From Verrucomicrobia bacterium LP2A (lineage in GTDB: Bacteria > Verrucomicrobiota > Verrucomicrobiia > Methylacidiphilales > Methylacidiphilaceae): 64,000 nucleotides of DNA. The translations under genes were made by a program, and so were the position numbers. The stretch lies in assembly GCA_000526255.1 (NCBI GenBank), contig JAFS01000001.1:930001-994000 (forward strand), given 5' to 3'. The notes below the pieces were generated by a model. That model worked only from the letters and a program-made list of their open reading frames with translations. It ran no database searches and was not told the DNA's origin. Within the stretch, counting starts at the first letter, position 1; each line of letters opens with the position of its first letter. Shown in pieces: positions 9,476 to 44,105 of the stretch.

Positions 9476-10122
9476 TGCGGCCCCATCCGCGACGACTCAT
9501 CACCTTCGAGGGGTCGGAAGGAGCTGGGAAGTCGACCCAGATCCTTCGGCTCGAAGCCCGGCTGCACGCCTTGGGACAACCGGTTCTGACGGTCCGGGAG
9601 CCGGGCGGCACCCCCCTGGGGGAACGGCTCCGCCTGCTGCTCAAAGAGGCTTCTCCGGATCTTTCCGTCTGCCCGGAATCCGAGCTCCTCCTCTTCCTGG
9701 CCGCACGGGCCCAGCTCGTCCGCGAAACGATCGAGCCCGCCCTGCGCAAAGGTTCCTGGGTTCTCGCCGACCGCTTCAGCGACTCGACCCTCGCCTATCA
9801 GGGCGGAGGCCGGGGGTTGCCTCAACCCCTCCTCCGCTCCCTCAACGAGCTCGCCTGCGCGGGCCTCACCCCGGCGGTCACCTTCGTCCTCGACATCTCT
9901 TCTTCGGAAGGACGGGCACGCATCGCCCGCCGCCACGGAGAGAGCACCAAAGCCGATCGGATCGAGGCCGAGCCGCCCGAATTCTTCGAGCGGGTCCGAG
10001 CCGCCTACCTTGACCTGGCCCGGGCTGAGCCCGATCGGGTCGTGCTCATCAACGCAGAGCGGCCCGAGGAGGAGGTTGCCGCCCAGATTTGGGAGATCGT
10101 GCGCCGTGTCTTTGGACTCTGA
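9472..10122 (+). CDS. tmk: Thymidylate kinase
   Basis: This 216-residue enzyme phosphorylates dTMP to dTDP. It shows the P-loop FEGSEGAGKSTQ (near residue 15), the DR(F/Y) nucleotide site in LADRFSDSTLAYQGGGRGL, and REPGGTPLGERLR. The ATG at 9472 overlaps the cysS stop; a second ATG follows at 9475. A GGAGGAG ribosome site sits just upstream within cysS. The gene runs into holB, as in many bacteria where tmk and holB are adjacent. Confidence 0.95.
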   Translation: MMRPHPRRLITFEGSEGAGKSTQILRLEARLHALGQPVLTVREPGGTPLGERLRLLLKEASPDLSVCPESELLLFLAARAQLVRETIEPALRKGSWVLADRFSDSTLAYQGGGRGLPQPLLRSLNELACAGLTPAVTFVLDISSSEGRARIARRHGESTKADRIEAEPPEFFERVRAAYLDLARAEPDRVVLINAERPEEEVAAQIWEIVRRVFGL

Positions 10123-11017
10123 AACCATTCTTCTCCGCCTGCGGCAGGCGTTGGCCGACGACCGGCTCGCCCACGCCTATCTTCTGCTGGGCCCAAGCTC
10201 CTCTCTGCTCGAGGCGCTCGCGTTCCGGATCGCAGCCCTTCTGCTCGGGCCCCGCCCCGAAAACCATCCCGACTTCCACCTCGCCCGGGCCGAGTCCCGG
10301 CTGCGCCGCATCCCGGTCGAACGGATGCGGGCGCTCATGGAGATGCTCGCCCTCAAGCCCTACGAGAGCCGCTTTCGGGTAGCGCTGATCTGCGATGCCG
10401 AGCGGATGTGCCTCGGAGGCGGGGAAGCGGCGAACTCTTTCCTGAAAACGCTGGAAGAGCCGCCCCAGGATGTGGTGATCTTGCTCACCAGCACCCAGCC
10501 GCAGATGCTTCTTCCTACGATCTCCTCCCGGTGCATCCCGCTCGCCGTTCGGGGCGAGCCGGCAGAAGCGGCACCGGAAGATCCACGGGAAGCCCGATTC
10601 CTCGCCGACTGGTTCGCACCGGGCCCAAGCTCCCTTCTGCGGGCTTTTCGACGCGCCGCTCTTCTGGAAAGCACGTTGCTCGAGATCCGCAAGGAGATCG
10701 AATCCGAAATGGGCGAGGAGGACGAAAACGAACCCGAGGAGGTTCGCGCCGCCCTCGTCGAGTCGGCGGTCGATCTCCTGCGCGAGCGGCTTCTCGCCAA
10801 GCTCGAGGAAGCCTATGCGAAAGAGGCCAGCGCGGAGCGCGAGGGGCCTCCCGGGCGGGAGATCCGCATCCTCGAGGAGCTCTTGCGAGACCTCCGCGGG
10901 GGGCTCGATCCGGGACTCGCGTACGCCCGAGCTTGCCTCGAGATCGAGGAGTCGATCAAGATGAGCGGGTTCGACGCCAAGGAACCTTCATGGAAACCAA
11001 AGAAATTGCCGAGTTGA
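10106..11017 (+). CDS. holB: DNA polymerase III delta' subunit
   Basis: This 303-residue protein is the clamp-loader delta' subunit. It has the AAA+-like N-terminus LAHAYLLLGP, the region around the SRC motif seen here as ISSRCIPL, and the family signature ANSFLKTLEEPPQDVVILL. The usual zinc-binding cysteine group is absent, and the P-loop is degenerate, as expected for a non-ATPase delta'. The GTG at 10106, inside the end of tmk, gives the right N-terminus; no ATG fits. The end overlaps the start of accB by 28 bases. Confidence 0.85.
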   Translation: MSLDSETILLRLRQALADDRLAHAYLLLGPSSSLLEALAFRIAALLLGPRPENHPDFHLARAESRLRRIPVERMRALMEMLALKPYESRFRVALICDAERMCLGGGEAANSFLKTLEEPPQDVVILLTSTQPQMLLPTISSRCIPLAVRGEPAEAAPEDPREARFLADWFAPGPSSLLRAFRRAALLESTLLEIRKEIESEMGEEDENEPEEVRAALVESAVDLLRERLLAKLEEAYAKEASAEREGPPGREIRILEELLRDLRGGLDPGLAYARACLEIEESIKMSGFDAKEPSWKPKKLPS

Positions 11018-37000: not shown

Positions 37001-37870
37001 CTATTCTCGTGGCCTTTCCGACAATCCGCCGGCCAACGCCGGGGAGAGGGCGAAGAGCGTCTCGCAGAGCTCGTTTTGGGAAAGCGAGATCCGCTCGATC
37101 CTCATCTCCTGCAAGAAGCGCTCCTCGTTGCGGGAGAGCTCCCCCGGCAGGCTCGCCCAATGGCGATCCGAGGACCGTTTGAGGATCTGCCGCGCATAGG
37201 TCCGCTCCGTCTGGCTCGAAAAGCGGCATCCAATGAAGAGGAAGCGGCTACCCCGCCGCCGTTCCTGGACCACTGACGGGATCGGCGTCTGGATGTCGAT
37301 CTCGGTGAGCACCTCCACCAGATCCGAGTCCGAGATGACGAAATGCGCCGCGGGGCTGACCGATCCAAAAGGCTTGTAGAGCACGGTCCCCCACCGGGCG
37401 GCCTCGCTGAGCGGGGCCTCGGTTCCGTCCGGACGATAGGCTCGGGTCCAGCTTCCGGGATGCTCCGCTTGGCTCACCCCTTGAATCTCTCCCCAATCCG
37501 ACCGCGAGCCGAACGCCGCCCGAAGCGCGCCGTCATACCAGACATCGACGATCAGCGGGAGCTGGGGAAGGCTCGCCAACCGCTCGTGGAGAGCGAGCTT
37601 CGGACTCGGGACCGAAAAGGTCTCGAGCAGGAGCTTCCGCAGCGTTTTACGATGCTTCTGGCTTTCGATATATTGCGCAGCCGCCGACAGAATCTTCCTC
37701 GCCCGGCTTGGGACGGCCACCCGACGCGCGAGGCTTTCGGCAAGGCTTTCGCTGTCCGTTGGAAACGGCGCGGCGGAGTCCCCCTCTCGGGCCCAAATCC
37801 CTGGCCCCAAGTAGGGGACGAGCTTTCCCGCCTCCAGACATCCGGCCATTTCGTGCAAGAAATCGCTCAT
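37001..37870 (-). CDS. SIR2-like domain protein in the nif operon
   Basis: This 289-residue protein resembles SIR2-like (SIR2_2) proteins: its start ECLEAGKL-type segment (here AGCLEAGKLVPYLGPGIW) fits the NAD-binding loop LVPFLGAG of that fold, and later LYKPFGSV and FIGCRFSSQTER fit the domain end. It is found here between the 87-residue gene and nifW. Proteins of this kind occur in other nif clusters, but the role is not known to me. The ATG at 37870 overlaps the previous stop. NAD binding or hydrolysis is an inference. Confidence 0.6.
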   Translation of the reverse strand: MSDFLHEMAGCLEAGKLVPYLGPGIWAREGDSAAPFPTDSESLAESLARRVAVPSRARKILSAAAQYIESQKHRKTLRKLLLETFSVPSPKLALHERLASLPQLPLIVDVWYDGALRAAFGSRSDWGEIQGVSQAEHPGSWTRAYRPDGTEAPLSEAARWGTVLYKPFGSVSPAAHFVISDSDLVEVLTEIDIQTPIPSVVQERRRGSRFLFIGCRFSSQTERTYARQILKRSSDRHWASLPGELSRNEERFLQEMRIERISLSQNELCETLFALSPALAGGLSERPRE

Positions 37871-38152: not shown

Positions 38153-39328
38153 CTACAAATAGATCGCTGCTCCGGCCCCGACGTTGACCGAAGAGTCCTT
38201 CAGTGTCTTGACGATGAAGGCGATCTGCTCTTCGGTCAGATGGACATGAAACGGAAGAACGATGGAACGATCGGCCTCCTTCTCCGTGACCGGGAGGCGT
38301 CCCTTCCGCCAGCCGTTCTCGAGGGAATAACCCTGGAGGTGCATCGGCTGGCAATAGGCGGACGCCTCGATTTCCGCCTGGGCGAGATCTTCGAGAATTG
38401 CATCCCGGCTCGACCGGGTGAAGCGCGTCCCCAAATGGACCGGATAAAGGAACCAGTGAACCTGTCCCACCTCGGGAGCGACATAAGGGTCCTTGATCCC
38501 TTCGAAGGACTTCATCTGCTGGAAATACCAAGCTTCGACGAGCCGCCGGCGCTCCAGAATCCCCCCGATCCGATGGAGCTGGACGAGCCCCAGCGCCGCC
38601 GTGAGATTGCTCGGACCGGCATGGAGAGAAGGAACCATCGTTGCGATGCCAGAAAAGCGCTCTTCCCGGGAGCGGCTTCGGCCGTAGCGGATCTTGGCCG
38701 CCAGCTCCTCATCGTCGGTCACGACCATCCCGCCTTCTCCGCAGACCAGCGCTCCGGGCTGCGAAAAGTCGAAGACCGCCAACCGGCCGAACCCGCCAGT
38801 CATTCGATCGCCGTACCGGGAGCCGATCGACTCGGTCGAATCTTCCAGCAGGAGCAGTCCCTGCTCTTCCGCCAGCCGCTCCAGCTCCCGCCACGGCGCG
38901 GGATGGCCGAGCGTGTTTCCGGCGAGGATCGCCCGCGCTCCCTCTCGAGCCGCCTCCGCCACCCGCTCCGGAGAAAGGGCTCCCGACCAGTAGTCGATGT
39001 CGACGAAGCGGGGCTCGGCTCCGCACAAGGCTACCGCCGCTCCGACCTGGTGCCACGAATAGCCTGAAAGGATCACCCGGTCCCCGGGGCCGATGCCCAG
39101 AGCGCGGAGGGCGAGCCAGAGGCCGATGGCACCGCTGCCGACCGCCACCGCATGCTTGCGCCCTACCCAGCCGGCGAATGCGTTCTCCCACTCGTCGACC
39201 AACGCTCCTGCGCTGATCTCGGGCGACCGGAGCACCGAATCGACCGCAGCCAGCTCTTCTTCCGAGAGATCGGGATCGGAGAGCGGGATGCGCGGCAGGG
39301 GAGCTCCCGCCGAGGGTCCCGCCCTCAT
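38153..39328 (-). CDS. DegT/DnrJ-type PLP-fold protein lacking the catalytic lysine
   Basis: This 391-residue protein has the fold of sugar aminotransferases of the DegT/DnrJ/EryC1/StrS family: IPLSDPDLSEEEL at the start, AVGSGAIGLWLALRALGIGPGD, the Asp in LLLLEDSTESIGS and the block CGEGGMVVTDDEELA. In aminotransferases the segment before GEGG has a lysine seven residues into the block beginning F-x-F. Here it is VFDFSQPGALVCGEGG, with glycine (G192) at that place, so no internal aldimine with PLP is possible. The ATG at 39328 overlaps the nifT stop. It may be a binding protein or catalyse a different reaction. Confidence 0.8.
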   Translation of the reverse strand: MRAGPSAGAPLPRIPLSDPDLSEEELAAVDSVLRSPEISAGALVDEWENAFAGWVGRKHAVAVGSGAIGLWLALRALGIGPGDRVILSGYSWHQVGAAVALCGAEPRFVDIDYWSGALSPERVAEAAREGARAILAGNTLGHPAPWRELERLAEEQGLLLLEDSTESIGSRYGDRMTGGFGRLAVFDFSQPGALVCGEGGMVVTDDEELAAKIRYGRSRSREERFSGIATMVPSLHAGPSNLTAALGLVQLHRIGGILERRRLVEAWYFQQMKSFEGIKDPYVAPEVGQVHWFLYPVHLGTRFTRSSRDAILEDLAQAEIEASAYCQPMHLQGYSLENGWRKGRLPVTEKEADRSIVLPFHVHLTEEQIAFIVKTLKDSSVNVGAGAAIYL

Positions 39329-39546
39329 ACCCCTCCCTCTACGGACAAGCGCCGCGCCTCGACCGTGATGGGGAGGGGCGTATCGCCCGGCATCTCCGGA
39401 AGCTGGAAGCGCCATCCGTTGGCGAGCGTGACCATCCCGCCCCAGAGCCCGGGCTTCTCGGTGGTGACCACCGGTTCTTCCAGATCCTTTTTCGCCACGT
39501 AGACCGAAAGCTCTCCCTTGACCCCTCTCCGAAGCATGATCTTCAT
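39325..39546 (-). CDS. nifT: Nitrogen fixation protein NifT
   Basis: This 73-residue protein matches NifT/FixU: KIMLRRGVKGELSVYVAKKDLEEPVV and WGGMVTLANGWRFQLPEMP (in pieces) followed by LPITVEARRLS. The function is not settled; it is non-essential in known diazotrophs. It sits between nifS and the DegT-like gene with overlapping start and stop codons. Confidence 0.93.
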   Translation of the reverse strand: MKIMLRRGVKGELSVYVAKKDLEEPVVTTEKPGLWGGMVTLANGWRFQLPEMPGDTPLPITVEARRLSVEGGV

Positions 39547-40712
39547 CCCGCCCTTCCTCCCCCGCTTTGCGCCCCGCTGACCGCCAAAGCCTCCTCCACG
39601 ATGCCTCGAGCCGCTCGCTCCACCTGCCCGATGGTCGTCTCCTCTCCCAGGCTGAAGCGGATCGTGGCCCGCGCCTCCTCCGCCGAAAGTCCCATGGCCA
39701 GGAGAATCCGCGAGGGCTCTGTTCCCCCGCTCGCACAGGCCGAGCCCAAGGAAGCCTCGATGCCGCGCTGCTCCAGCCGGGCGAGCAGCTCTTCTCCGTC
39801 GATCCGTCCGAACCGCACGCTCGCCGTGTTAGCCACCCGAGGACTCTCTCCTCCATTGACCGCGGCAAAGGGGAGCGCCTGGAGGATCTCTTTCTCTAGC
39901 CGATCGCGGAGCCACCCCACCGCTTTTACCCGATCCGCGAGCCCACTCGCGGCCAGCCGTGCCGCCGCGCCAAACCCGACAATGCCCACAACGTTCTCGG
40001 TCCCCCCCCTCCGGCCCCGCTCCTGGTGGCCACAAAGCAGGGGAGGCAACGCAACCCCCTTTCGCAGGAAAAGGGCGCCGATCCCCTTGGGCCCTCCCAG
40101 CTTGTGAGCGGAAAACGAGAGAAGATCGAAGGGGAGCTCCCCGGCATCGACCGGGATCTTTCCCACCGCCTGCGCCGCGTCCAGGTGACAGAGGAGACCC
40201 TGCTCCTTCGCCAGAAGGAGAACCTTTTCGACCGGGCTGATCACCCCCGTCTCGTTGTTGACCCAGACCAGAGACAAGAGCGACGCCGGTCTGGCGAGCG
40301 CTTCCTCGAGGGCACCAAGATCGACCCACCCTTGCCGATCGACCGGCAGCCGGACGATCTCCACCCCGCGGTTTTCCAGCCGCTCGAAGAGCAGGCCAGT
40401 GCTCGGATGCTCCACCGTCGTGGACAAGACACGGGGCCGGTCCGGAGTCAGCTCAAGCGCTCCCAGGATCGCCTGGTGGATCGACTCGGTGCAGCCGCTC
40501 GTAAAAAGGATTTCCGGGGGCTTGGCGCCGATCAGGGCCGCCACCTCGCTCCGCGCTCGTCCGAGCGCTTCCTTGGCGAGCCCTCCGCTCAAACCCGGGC
40601 TCGAGGGATTCCCGAAGCGCTCCCGAAGATAGGGGAACATCTCCTCCAGGGCTTCCGGCCGCAAGGGGGCCGTTGCGTTGTGATCGAGATAGATCCGATC
40701 GATTTCACCCAT
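39543..40712 (-). CDS. nifS: Cysteine desulfurase NifS
   Basis: This 389-residue PLP enzyme takes sulfur from cysteine for Fe-S cluster assembly. It has YLDHNATAPLRPEALEEM, the PLP lysine in SFSAHKLGGPKGIGALF, and the active cysteine in SLGSACASGGTEPS. The ATG at 40712 overlaps the nifZ stop; an earlier ATG at 40730 would overlap nifZ further. nifU is not found in the window, so sulfur probably goes to other scaffolds. Confidence 0.94.
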   Translation of the reverse strand: MGEIDRIYLDHNATAPLRPEALEEMFPYLRERFGNPSSPGLSGGLAKEALGRARSEVAALIGAKPPEILFTSGCTESIHQAILGALELTPDRPRVLSTTVEHPSTGLLFERLENRGVEIVRLPVDRQGWVDLGALEEALARPASLLSLVWVNNETGVISPVEKVLLLAKEQGLLCHLDAAQAVGKIPVDAGELPFDLLSFSAHKLGGPKGIGALFLRKGVALPPLLCGHQERGRRGGTENVVGIVGFGAAARLAASGLADRVKAVGWLRDRLEKEILQALPFAAVNGGESPRVANTASVRFGRIDGEELLARLEQRGIEASLGSACASGGTEPSRILLAMGLSAEEARATIRFSLGEETTIGQVERAARGIVEEALAVSGAQSGGGRAG

Positions 40713-41007
40713 GATTGACCTGGGGCTCAACTGTTCCCGCTCCCTCTTCCTCCACGGGTTCCAGCTCCTTGCCCTTCATCCCGACCACGTAGCCGCGCTC
40801 GTAGAAGTCGACGCCGTAGATGTAAAAGCGCTGGAGAAAGGTACCGATGCTCGTCACCACTCCCCTCTCCCCCTTTTTGATCAAGACCTCACCGATCTCC
40901 TTTCCGGGGAAGGTCCCGTCGTTCCGGATATGCCTCCTCGAGACCACCTTTTGGCCGTAGGCGAAGGCGGGCGGCCCCTCGAGCTCGACTTCGTCGTCCA
41001 TGCCCAT
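40705..41007 (-). CDS. nifZ: NifZ, P-cluster maturation protein
   Basis: This 100-residue protein matches NifZ, which helps form the second P-cluster of the MoFe protein: FAYGQKVVSRRHIRNDGTFPG, GEVLIKKGERGVVTSIGTFLQ (in pieces) and YIYGVDFYERGYVVGMKGKEL. The ATG at 41007 is used; the longer frame overlaps the upstream TPR-type gene. It is followed by nifS with overlap. Confidence 0.9.
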   Translation of the reverse strand: MGMDDEVELEGPPAFAYGQKVVSRRHIRNDGTFPGKEIGEVLIKKGERGVVTSIGTFLQRFYIYGVDFYERGYVVGMKGKELEPVEEEGAGTVEPQVNHG

Positions 41008-41023
41008 AAGATTGTCCTTTCCT

Positions 41024-41554
41024 TCAGTCCTCGTCCTCCGTCTGCCCCCGCTCGACGATCCTCCGCAGATCCCCTCCCCGCAGCAGGCCCTTGGGGTCGA
41101 GCTCCTCCAGCTTGCGCAGAGCCGCAAGCCCCTTCTCCCGCTCGCCCAGGCGGCTCTCGAGATAGCCGTAGGCTTTCAGGGCAAAGAGGTAGAGGCGGAA
41201 GAGGGGATCTTCCTGGGCCCTCTCTTCCCGACGGGCAGCGCAAACCGTGCTCCACTCTTGGGGAAGGCCTGCCTTCCTCGCTACGGCCTCCAGGCAAGCG
41301 AGCGCCCAGTCCCGGGCCTCCACGAGCTTCCCCGAGTAGAAGGCGTACCGATAGTTGCCGATCAGGACGGAGATATGCTCCGGATCGGCCTCGATTGCTT
41401 CGCGCAAGAGCGCTTCGGCCCGGGACTGCGCCCGACCCGAACGGCCCGCCGCGCGGAGGAGCTCTTCGGCGCGGCTCGAAAGCGACCCCCAATACGCCTC
41501 AGCGAGCGCACCCACGCCGGGAAGCGCTTCCGCAAGAGGAGCTTCGGTTCCCAT
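41024..41554 (-). CDS. TPR-type protein of the nif operon (unknown role)
   Basis: This 176-residue helical protein contains a repeat-like block LLREAIEADPEHISVLIGNY, then AFYSGKLVEARDWALACLEA, which resembles tetratricopeptide repeats, and a later LEELDPKGLLRGGDL. Such proteins usually bind other proteins. It lies between iscA-like and nifZ in the nif operon. I do not know a defined function. Confidence 0.65.
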   Translation of the reverse strand: MGTEAPLAEALPGVGALAEAYWGSLSSRAEELLRAAGRSGRAQSRAEALLREAIEADPEHISVLIGNYRYAFYSGKLVEARDWALACLEAVARKAGLPQEWSTVCAARREERAQEDPLFRLYLFALKAYGYLESRLGEREKGLAALRKLEELDPKGLLRGGDLRRIVERGQTEDED

Positions 41555-42180: not shown

Positions 42181-43764
42181 TTAGGCCGCCTGGCCCGCAG
42201 GCGCGCTCAACTCGATAAACGCCCCCTGCCGAATCATCGCGTCCCCGCGCTCGATATCGACAAGCTCTCCGTTCTTCAACCTCTCCAAGTAGCTCCGGTA
42301 GTAGGAGATCGTAGCGGTCTCAATGTAGCCGTAGGCATACTGGTCGACCGGCTCGATTCCCGCCTTCCGCAGCTCTTCCTTGGGACAACCCCCGATCTTG
42401 GCCACGAAGACCGCGACACAGTCATTGATCGCACGAATGACCCCCGCGAGGGCGTCCTCTTCCCCGTAGCCGCCCTGGCAGTAGAGATCGACGCGCCGAT
42501 GCCCCACGAACTTGGAGCCGGCCACGCTCAGCTCGTAGATCTGAAACTCCTTGGCGTGCCCGAAATGTTCGTTTACCTTTCCGCCGCCCTTGGTAGCGAC
42601 CGCCACCAGGATCTTCCGATCGCTGTTCTCTCCCGCCAGCGTGAGGAGCTCCTGCTCCCGCGCCGCTTTCCTGACCTCCCGCTCGATCTCCACCGAGTCC
42701 CGATAGGACCGGCGCTTCGCGGCGTCGTACTCGACCTCCATCGACTCGATCCGCTCGGTCGTGAACTCGGCCCCCCGGTCCTCGCCGAGCAAGCCGACCG
42801 CGTCGGCCCGGCACTGGCGGCAGTGGCGCATCATGTTCATCTCTCCCTCGCACTTGTCCTGGAGCGCCTTGAGCTCCTGAGCGGATGGCCCGCGCTGTCC
42901 GGAAAGCCCGAAGACCGTTCCATGCTCTGGCGAAGAGATGAGTGGCATGATGTTGTGCAGGAAGGCTCCTCGGCTCTTGACCGCCTTATTCACCTCGACC
43001 AGGTGATCGTCGTTGATCCCGGGGATCATCACCGAATTGACCTTGCAGAGGATTCCCGCTTGGGTCAGCATTTCGAGACCCTCCAGCTGCCTCTCCGTAA
43101 GGAGCTTCGCCGCATCCTTCCCCGTGTAGCGCTTGTGACGGAAGAAGACCCAGGGATAGATCCGGGCGCCCACCTCGGGATCGACCATGTTGATCGTGAT
43201 CGTGACATGATCCACCTTGAAATCCTTGATCCGCTCGACGTAGTCGGGCAGCGCAAGCCCGTTGGTCGAAAGGCAGAGCTTGATGTCCGGAGCGGCCTTG
43301 AACACGAAGTCAAAGGTCTGGAAGGTCTTGTCCGGATTAGCCAGGGGATCTCCGGGCCCGGCGATTCCGAGGACCGTCATCTGCGGGATCTCGGAAGCCA
43401 CGGCGAGAACCTTCTTCGCCGCCTGCTCCGGGGTCAGCCGTTCGCTCACCACTCCGGGACGGCTCTCGTTGGCGCAATCGTACTTCCGGTTGCAGTAGTT
43501 ACACTGAATGTTGCAAGCGGGGGCGACCGCCACGTGCATCCGCGCATAGTGGTGATGCGCTTCCTCGCTGTAGCAGGGATGATTCTTGACCTTCTCCCAA
43601 ATTTCCGAGGGCAGATCGCCCGAACCGGCACTCGAGCCGCAGCTCGACTTGCCGCTTCCCCCGCTCGATCCGCAACCTTTATGGGGTGCTACGGGGATCG
43701 TCAGCCCCTTCAAATTCGAAAACCGAGCAATCACGCCTTGTCCAGGTTCCTTAAGAGCTTCCAT
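42181..43764 (-). CDS. nifB: FeMo-cofactor biosynthesis radical SAM protein NifB
   Basis: This 527-residue protein makes NifB-co, the Fe8-S9-C precursor of the nitrogenase cofactor. The radical SAM motif is in [20 protein letters not shown] (C-x3-C-x2-C). A Gly/Ser-rich region with two Cys ([16 protein letters not shown]) precedes it. A NifX-like C-terminal domain (about residues 390-510; [23 protein letters not shown]) holds the product. The ATG at 43764 lies 77 bases downstream of a sigma-54 start site. It heads the long minus-strand operon ending with fixX or before nifW. Confidence 0.96.
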
Positions 43765-43851: not shown

Positions 43852-43867
43852 AGCAAAGAACGTGCCA
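43852..43867 (-). promoter_or_regulatory. Sigma-54 promoter before nifB
   Basis: Minus-strand sequence TGGCACGTTCTTTGCT matches TGGCACG-N4-TTGCW at every fixed position. The predicted transcription start is near 43841, 77 bases upstream of the nifB ATG. Confidence 0.9.
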
Positions 43868-43940: not shown

Positions 43941-43956
43941 TGTCGTAACCGTGACA
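43941..43956. promoter_or_regulatory. NifA upstream activator site (TGT-N10-ACA) for nifB
   Basis: TGT (43941-43943), ten bases, then ACA (43954-43956), the NifA-binding consensus. Its centre is about 107 bases upstream of the predicted nifB start site, the usual distance. It lies in the 341-base stretch between nifB and the iscA-like gene, which holds no gene. Confidence 0.85.
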
Positions 43957-44105
43957 CAGGATGTTGTTTTCTTTTGTCCGCTTCTCCACAGCGGCCAAAC
44001 GGACCAAGGAGGGCGGCTCGAGCGCACAGGCCCGGGAAGGCGGACATCCGCCGAAAAGAAAAGGAAACCCCGCGCCAAGCGGTGGGAGGCACCGGCTTTC
44101 GCTGC

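Follow-up and report, generated by a model that had tools for sequence, protein, structure and literature searches.

A conserved DegT-fold protein of nif operons with an apparently lost PLP site

The window analysed here, a stretch of 64,000 nucleotides from Verrucomicrobia bacterium LP2A, contains a nif operon with the gene order nifB - ferredoxin - IscA-like - Orf176 - nifZ - nifS-type - nifT - degT - orf87 - SIR2_2 - nifW (Table 1). The degT gene codes for a protein of 391 amino acids, here called nif-DegT, whose match to the Pfam profile PF01041 (264 bits against a cut-off of 19.8) covers positions 2 to 359 of 360; by fold and by sequence, it belongs to the DegT/DnrJ/EryC1/StrS family. A tight coupling of degT to nifT had been proposed in a preliminary description of this locus and is borne out by the overlapping stop and start codons. 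A sigma54-type pattern is found twice in the window (0.73 matches expected), and two NifA-type TGT-N10-ACA sites are located ahead of nifB (43941-43956 and 43975-43990). Each of these patterns is singly only mildly enriched compared to shuffled sequences; however, they occur together at the expected place. Judging from this arrangement, translation of nif-DegT is coupled to that of nifT, and both genes follow a putative sigma54/NifA-type promoter. The two genes on the other side of degT had both been called unknown, which holds for Orf87: it has no match above the cut-off in Pfam, and its structural model (pLDDT 85) retrieved no PDB match with E <= 0.001. The second one, in contrast, contains a SIR2_2 domain. 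A SIR2_2-domain gene is present near nif-DegT in most loci, and Rcc03262, the SIR2_2-domain counterpart of Rhodobacter capsulatus, is undetected without NifA (PMC6925177). Orf176 (41024-41554, minus strand) is also without a Pfam match, but TPR repeats are present in the Methylococcus gene at the syntenic place (L025, 7998-8501); there, a 4Fe4S leucine-rich-repeat (LRV) gene comes next, none of which was seen between Orf176 and nifZ of the window. The corresponding operon of Paraburkholderia sprentiae has an intact degT, but its nifS-type gene (L027, 10982-11401) is annotated with a length of only 420 bp and looks truncated.

Table 1. Position of nif-DegT, its diagnostic residues and neighbouring features in the window
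Feature	Coordinates	Strand	Basis or remark
SIR2_2-domain protein	37001..37870	-	PF13289, 74 bits; ATG overlaps Orf87 stop (ATGA)
Orf87, small conserved partner (HVRFAPDG..EIGERP..WF..GGRG.FR), 70-90 aa	37867..38130	-	co-occurrence with nif-DegT
nif-DegT, putative DegT-fold pseudo-aminotransferase, 391 aa	38153..39328	-	PF01041, 264 bits
C-terminal tail NVGAGAAIYL, residues 382-391, clade-specific	38156..38185	-	not present in ordinary DegT
Codon of G192 (GGA), Schiff-base lysine position	38753..38755	-	aligned with K186 of perosamine synthase
Codon of D187 (GAC), phosphate-binding serine position	38768..38770	-	comparison of clade and ordinary DegT
nifT	39325..39546	-	PF06988, TIGR02934; stop overlaps nif-DegT start (ATGA)
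nifS-type cysteine desulfurase, own lysine present (SFSAHK)	39543..40730	-	TIGR03402, 410 bits, under model cut-off of 530.75
nifZ	40705..41022	-	PF04319, 110 bits
Putative sigma54-type -24/-12 promoter TGGCACGTTCTTTGCT	43852..43867	-	pattern search; about 90 bp before presumed nifB start at 43764

The segment VFDFSQPGALVCGEGG comprises residues 185-200 of nif-DegT (window 38729-38776) and contains the site at which DegT aminotransferases carry the Schiff-base lysine. In a HMMER alignment, G192 is aligned with residue 186 of GDP-perosamine synthase, which is Lys in the structures 3bn1 and 3dr7 and the engineered K186A exchange in 3dr4. The structure of the nif-DegT monomer was predicted with AlphaFold2 (five models, from an input alignment without two plasmid-record rows) with a mean pLDDT of 90.4 and a pTM of 0.90, and the best PDB match of the model is 3dr4 (Z 48.6, 1.8 A over 364 residues). 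According to this model, the DegT type I fold is intact; since G192 is aligned with Lys186 and the best match of the model is the K186A mutant, the lysine is truly missing, as had been stated in the preliminary description. Gly is also found at this position in six other sequences of the genus, and the agreement of all seven, together with the comparison of the clade with ordinary DegT proteins described below, rules out chance or a sequencing error at the G192 codon. Orthologs of the same genus are 80-94% identical to nif-DegT, and those of Proteobacteria and of Methylacidiphilum-type genomes 51-62%. The ortholog of Methylacidimicrobium tartarophylax, with 83% identity, places the window in the genome of a Methylacidimicrobium-like verrucomicrobial methanotroph.

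To put this site into context, 149 distinct proteins of the nif clade, drawn from a one-genome-per-species scan (80 of 437 relatives), plasmid records and group searches and covering Alpha-, Beta- and Gammaproteobacteria and Verrucomicrobia, were compared with 43 ordinary DegT proteins, using the PLP ligands as named for Spr1654 (PMC5936713). At the Schiff-base lysine position, the nif clade has Ser (81 proteins), Gly (45), Phe (17), Leu (3) or Ala (3) and in no case Lys, whereas Lys is present in all 43 ordinary proteins. Because five different residues occupy this position, Gly192 itself is not fixed among the nif-cluster homologs and is not a specific signal of a binding or scaffolding function, as had been suggested; it is characteristic of the genus of the window and is found in a minority of proteins elsewhere, Ser being commoner overall. 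Fixed instead is an acidic residue at position 187 (Asp in 148 proteins, Glu in one), at which all 43 ordinary proteins carry Ser. In Spr1654, Ser194 binds the PLP phosphate, and the phosphate charge is neutralized by a helix dipole (PMC5936713); the corresponding helix of nif-DegT is formed by residues 66-76. The aspartate of the motif LLEDSTES that binds the pyridine nitrogen, Asp163, is kept in 149 of 149 proteins, in line with the earlier description, the ring-stacking aromatic residue in nearly all and the phosphate-binding Thr67 in most of them, the window protein having Ala at the latter position; Glu166 and Glu198 are also retained. The further claim that the pocket is otherwise preserved did not stand up, as the phosphate serine is replaced by Asp187 and the position which we mapped to the Asn of the second subunit is occupied by Gln, Arg or His. 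The protein of the window thus has the ring-nitrogen aspartate (D163) of a PLP-dependent DegT aminotransferase and lacks its Schiff-base lysine (G192) and its phosphate serine (D187). Another lysine that could take over the PLP site was ruled out: the only near-invariant lysines of the clade, K279 and K377, do not align to the pocket, which agrees with the initial view that lysine-dependent transamination is impossible. However, crystal structures of K-to-A mutants of DegT family members contain a ligand, namely PLP, an aldimine or a sugar (4oca, 3nys, 4ztc and 3dr4), so nothing beyond the failure of normal transamination can be concluded from the missing lysine, and PLP could still be bound. 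The fixed Asp at the phosphate site is the better argument against PLP, which is probably absent from nif-DegT.

The whole fold of nif-DegT is similar to that of the DegT sugar aminotransferases GDP-perosamine synthase of Caulobacter crescentus (3bn1, 3dr7, 3dr4), ArnB, PseC and Spr1654 (Z 46-49, 24-32% identity), with which it shares the ring-nitrogen Asp, the stacking aromatic residue and, in most cases, the phosphate-binding Thr. It differs from them by the exchanges of Lys, Ser and Asn, by an extra C-terminal tail and by its location in nif clusters instead of sugar-pathway clusters. GDP-4-keto-6-deoxymannose-3-dehydratase (ColD) likewise has a DegT fold without the Schiff-base lysine; it carries a catalytic His at the lysine site and binds PMP. 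In contrast, none of the 149 nif homologs has His at this site, and their phosphate cup is altered; as no homolog has the His, ColD-type chemistry is excluded as a trait of the family. By fold and sequence, nif-DegT is thus a DegT-family protein; by chemistry, its residues indicate neither a PLP aminotransferase nor a ColD-type dehydratase.

In a tree with 149 tips, the nif-DegT proteins form one group without any ordinary member inside (support 0.78); an earlier tree with 89 tips had no ordinary member inside the clade either, but almost no branch support. Searches of 201 and 399 genomes from two further orders revealed no lysine-bearing intermediates within the clade; in these two orders, clade members are at least 58% identical to the query (E < 1e-140, full-length matches) and ordinary DegT proteins at most 39%. 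Residues that are new to the clade comprise N138, W146, E166, D187, Q190-P191, the HLGTRF loop (298-303), H361 and the tail NVGAGAAIY, in which G384, A385, G386 and I389 are invariant and N382, A388 and Y390 nearly invariant. Within the genus, dN/dS of nif-DegT is about 0.13 (dN 0.10, dS 0.72-0.79); the gene is under purifying selection, which is as strict as that on nifT and nifZ and stricter than that on nifS, SIR2_2 and orf87. The earlier interpretation holds in so far as nif-DegT is not a lysine-dependent transaminase and is a conserved nif gene, and is not supported where it relied on Gly as a signal and on an intact pocket.

The one-genome-per-species scan yielded 437 nif-DegT relatives or loci, and nif genes are located close to nif-DegT in all 80 loci examined (80 of the 437 relatives); the presence in nif clusters or operons across distant lineages establishes it as a nif-associated gene, as had been assumed from the single locus. 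No relatives were found among viral contigs. In the family of the window, nif-DegT is present in 12 of 12 nifH-positive genomes and missing from the sole nifH-negative one. Among 248 genomes of the Xanthobacteraceae, 30 contain nif-DegT, which adjoins nifZ in each of them; nifH was detected in at least 22 of these 30 and in at least 35 of the 218 other genomes (Fisher p 3e-10), both counts being lower bounds as the best nine candidates per genome were scored. A large number of diazotrophs are without nif-DegT, among them 35 of the 57 Xanthobacteraceae scored as nifH-positive (a lower bound as well) and six verrucomicrobial genomes, so the gene is not a general requirement for nitrogenase. In this respect it resembles NifT, NifZ, NifW and other nif accessory proteins, which are encoded in the same operon or cluster and are likewise kept in part of the diazotrophs, although the folds of NifT, NifZ and NifW are unrelated to that of nif-DegT. 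Methylacidiphilum-type genomes retain the block nifT-degT-orf87-SIR2. In Methylacidiphilum fumariolicum SolV grown on N2, expression of fixU/nifT increases from 164 to 2265 RPKM and that of nifW from 62 to 2260 (PMC3404531); the gap between the locus tags of fixU (690015) and nifW (690011) is just wide enough for the three genes degT, orf87 and SIR2, and by analogy with these neighbors degT itself probably rises on N2 as well.

The gene has been listed before. BRADO5411 of Bradyrhizobium ORS278, a DegT protein, was counted among the nitrogen-fixation genes that are common to nod-independent photosynthetic bradyrhizobia and not found in B. japonicum USDA110 (PMC3899966). It is listed beside genes for NifZ-domain, LRV-FeS4 and TPR proteins and is presumably the same nif-DegT gene; the accessible part of that study reports it as 'putative Aminotransferase, DegT/DnrJ/EryC1/StrS family' and does not mention a loss of the PLP site. 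The searchable papers on DegT and nif, with subscription journals lying mostly outside, mention the gene solely under the name 'putative aminotransferase', and none that describes how the lysine was lost came to light. On the basis of its residues, nif-DegT is rated here as a conserved pseudoenzyme of the nif operon whose lost site is apparently undescribed, and the public annotation as an aminotransferase appears to be mistaken throughout the clade (437 loci matched with one genome per species, the site having been read in 149).

Of the 248 Xanthobacteraceae genomes, 31 encode Orf87; 29 of these 31 also contain nif-DegT, corresponding to 29 of the 30 DegT-positive genomes; in the sole genome with degT only, the contig ends soon after degT. 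In the two genomes with Orf87 only (L229, about 9955-10480; L230, 6979-8219), a stop lies inside the Orf87 match and other nif genes remain; one of them has a degenerate degT remnant, and in the other a degT-free stretch of about 1 kb separates nifZ from orf87. Both are Bradyrhizobium-type genomes and carry nodC. Furthermore, degT is frameshifted and contains a stop on a plasmid of a peanut-nodule Bradyrhizobium (L028, 11835-12951), in which other nif genes remain. A third nodC genome (G169) keeps degT with a partial Orf87 match only, and two genomes, G077 and G121, the latter of which is under the nodC cut-off, keep both genes. This pattern, from a small sample of two genomes and one frameshifted plasmid copy, together with the listing of BRADO5411 mentioned above, hints that the DegT/Orf87 pair can be spared inside nodules and benefits fixation by free-living cells, and the linked loss in nodule-forming bradyrhizobia provides a direct, testable clue to when nif-DegT matters. 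At L232 (8261-8464, corresponding to G107:C1:3866260-3866454), a second, diverged Orf87 copy is located within about 3 kb of a further nifH, with no match to nif-DegT in this region; such copies also occur at G105:C16:609820 and G265:C33:162773.

As nif-DegT is strictly conserved despite the loss of its PLP ligands, it probably helps to build or protect nitrogenase and does so not as a B6 enzyme. We consider it probable, though far from certain, that nif-DegT is a PLP-free relative of sugar aminotransferases, which has become a dedicated accessory protein of nitrogen fixation and is mainly needed outside nodules; the last point derives from the decay of degT and Orf87 in the two Bradyrhizobium-type genomes that carry nodC and have retained nif. 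D187 would cap the helix that formerly neutralized the phosphate, fill the cup permanently and stabilize an empty acidic pocket. The nif-DegT homodimer may then act by binding proteins, possibly as a scaffold, or by holding a non-PLP ligand; the surfaces that set the clade apart, namely the HLGTRF loop and the NVGAGAAIY tail, would mediate this action together with Orf87, and the step served would be the maturation or protection of nitrogenase. Only tentatively can this be extended to a scenario in which the fold of a B6 enzyme was converted to a cofactor-free factor for nitrogenase maturation or oxygen protection that is paired with Orf87, in which a built-in carboxylate replaces the PLP phosphate and which is kept by fixers of open environments and lost by nodule specialists. 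Being selected as strictly as nifT and nifZ, nif-DegT is a candidate for a missing part in the transfer of nitrogenase to new hosts, especially where nitrogen is to be fixed by free-living cells exposed to oxygen.

Alternatively, the pocket could have been rebuilt for another small ligand or a metal, with D163, E166, D187 and E198 acting together with H142 and H330, and nif-DegT would be a sensor, a carrier or a non-PLP enzyme of the nif pathway and not a simple scaffold. The mapped pocket positions are indeed more conserved than the remaining core (mean entropy 0.48 versus 1.14 bits, P 0.005), D163, E166 and P328 are invariant and D187 nearly so, and N138, W146 and H361 are new to the clade. 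However, part of this conservation is inherited from the fold, and the variability of the lysine position would hardly be tolerable in a precise binding site, which leaves a rebuilt pocket a possible, if rather doubtful, explanation. Since D163, E166, Glu198, the stacking aromatic residue and mostly Thr67 are kept, a changed ligand or a weak binding of pyridoxamine phosphate may be considered as well. A regular non-covalent use of this cofactor in the manner of the ColD-type dehydratases is nevertheless quite improbable: the ligand-bound K-to-A mutants and the mostly retained Asp163, Thr67 and aromatic residue would permit it, but the His needed by ColD is absent throughout, Asp187 places a negative charge at the phosphate seat, and the second-subunit Asn position is altered. 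It is very unlikely that nif-DegT pairs with a lysine-bearing DegT enzyme as the regulatory, catalytically dead subunit of a heterodimer, comparable to LCB1 in serine palmitoyltransferase. DegT active sites are located at the dimer interface (PMC5936713) and at least one ordinary DegT protein is encoded in the same genome; these ordinary copies, however, belong to distant subfamilies, no lysine-bearing DegT was found beside nif-DegT in the loci examined, and the pocket residues of the second subunit are altered as well. That nif-DegT is a dispensable relic in decay, as the frameshifted, degenerate or missing copies in some nodule-forming Bradyrhizobium-type genomes might suggest, is scarcely credible, as it is contradicted by the strong purifying selection, by the invariant tail residues and near-invariant D187 across two phyla and by the presence of the gene in every nifH-positive genome of its own family.
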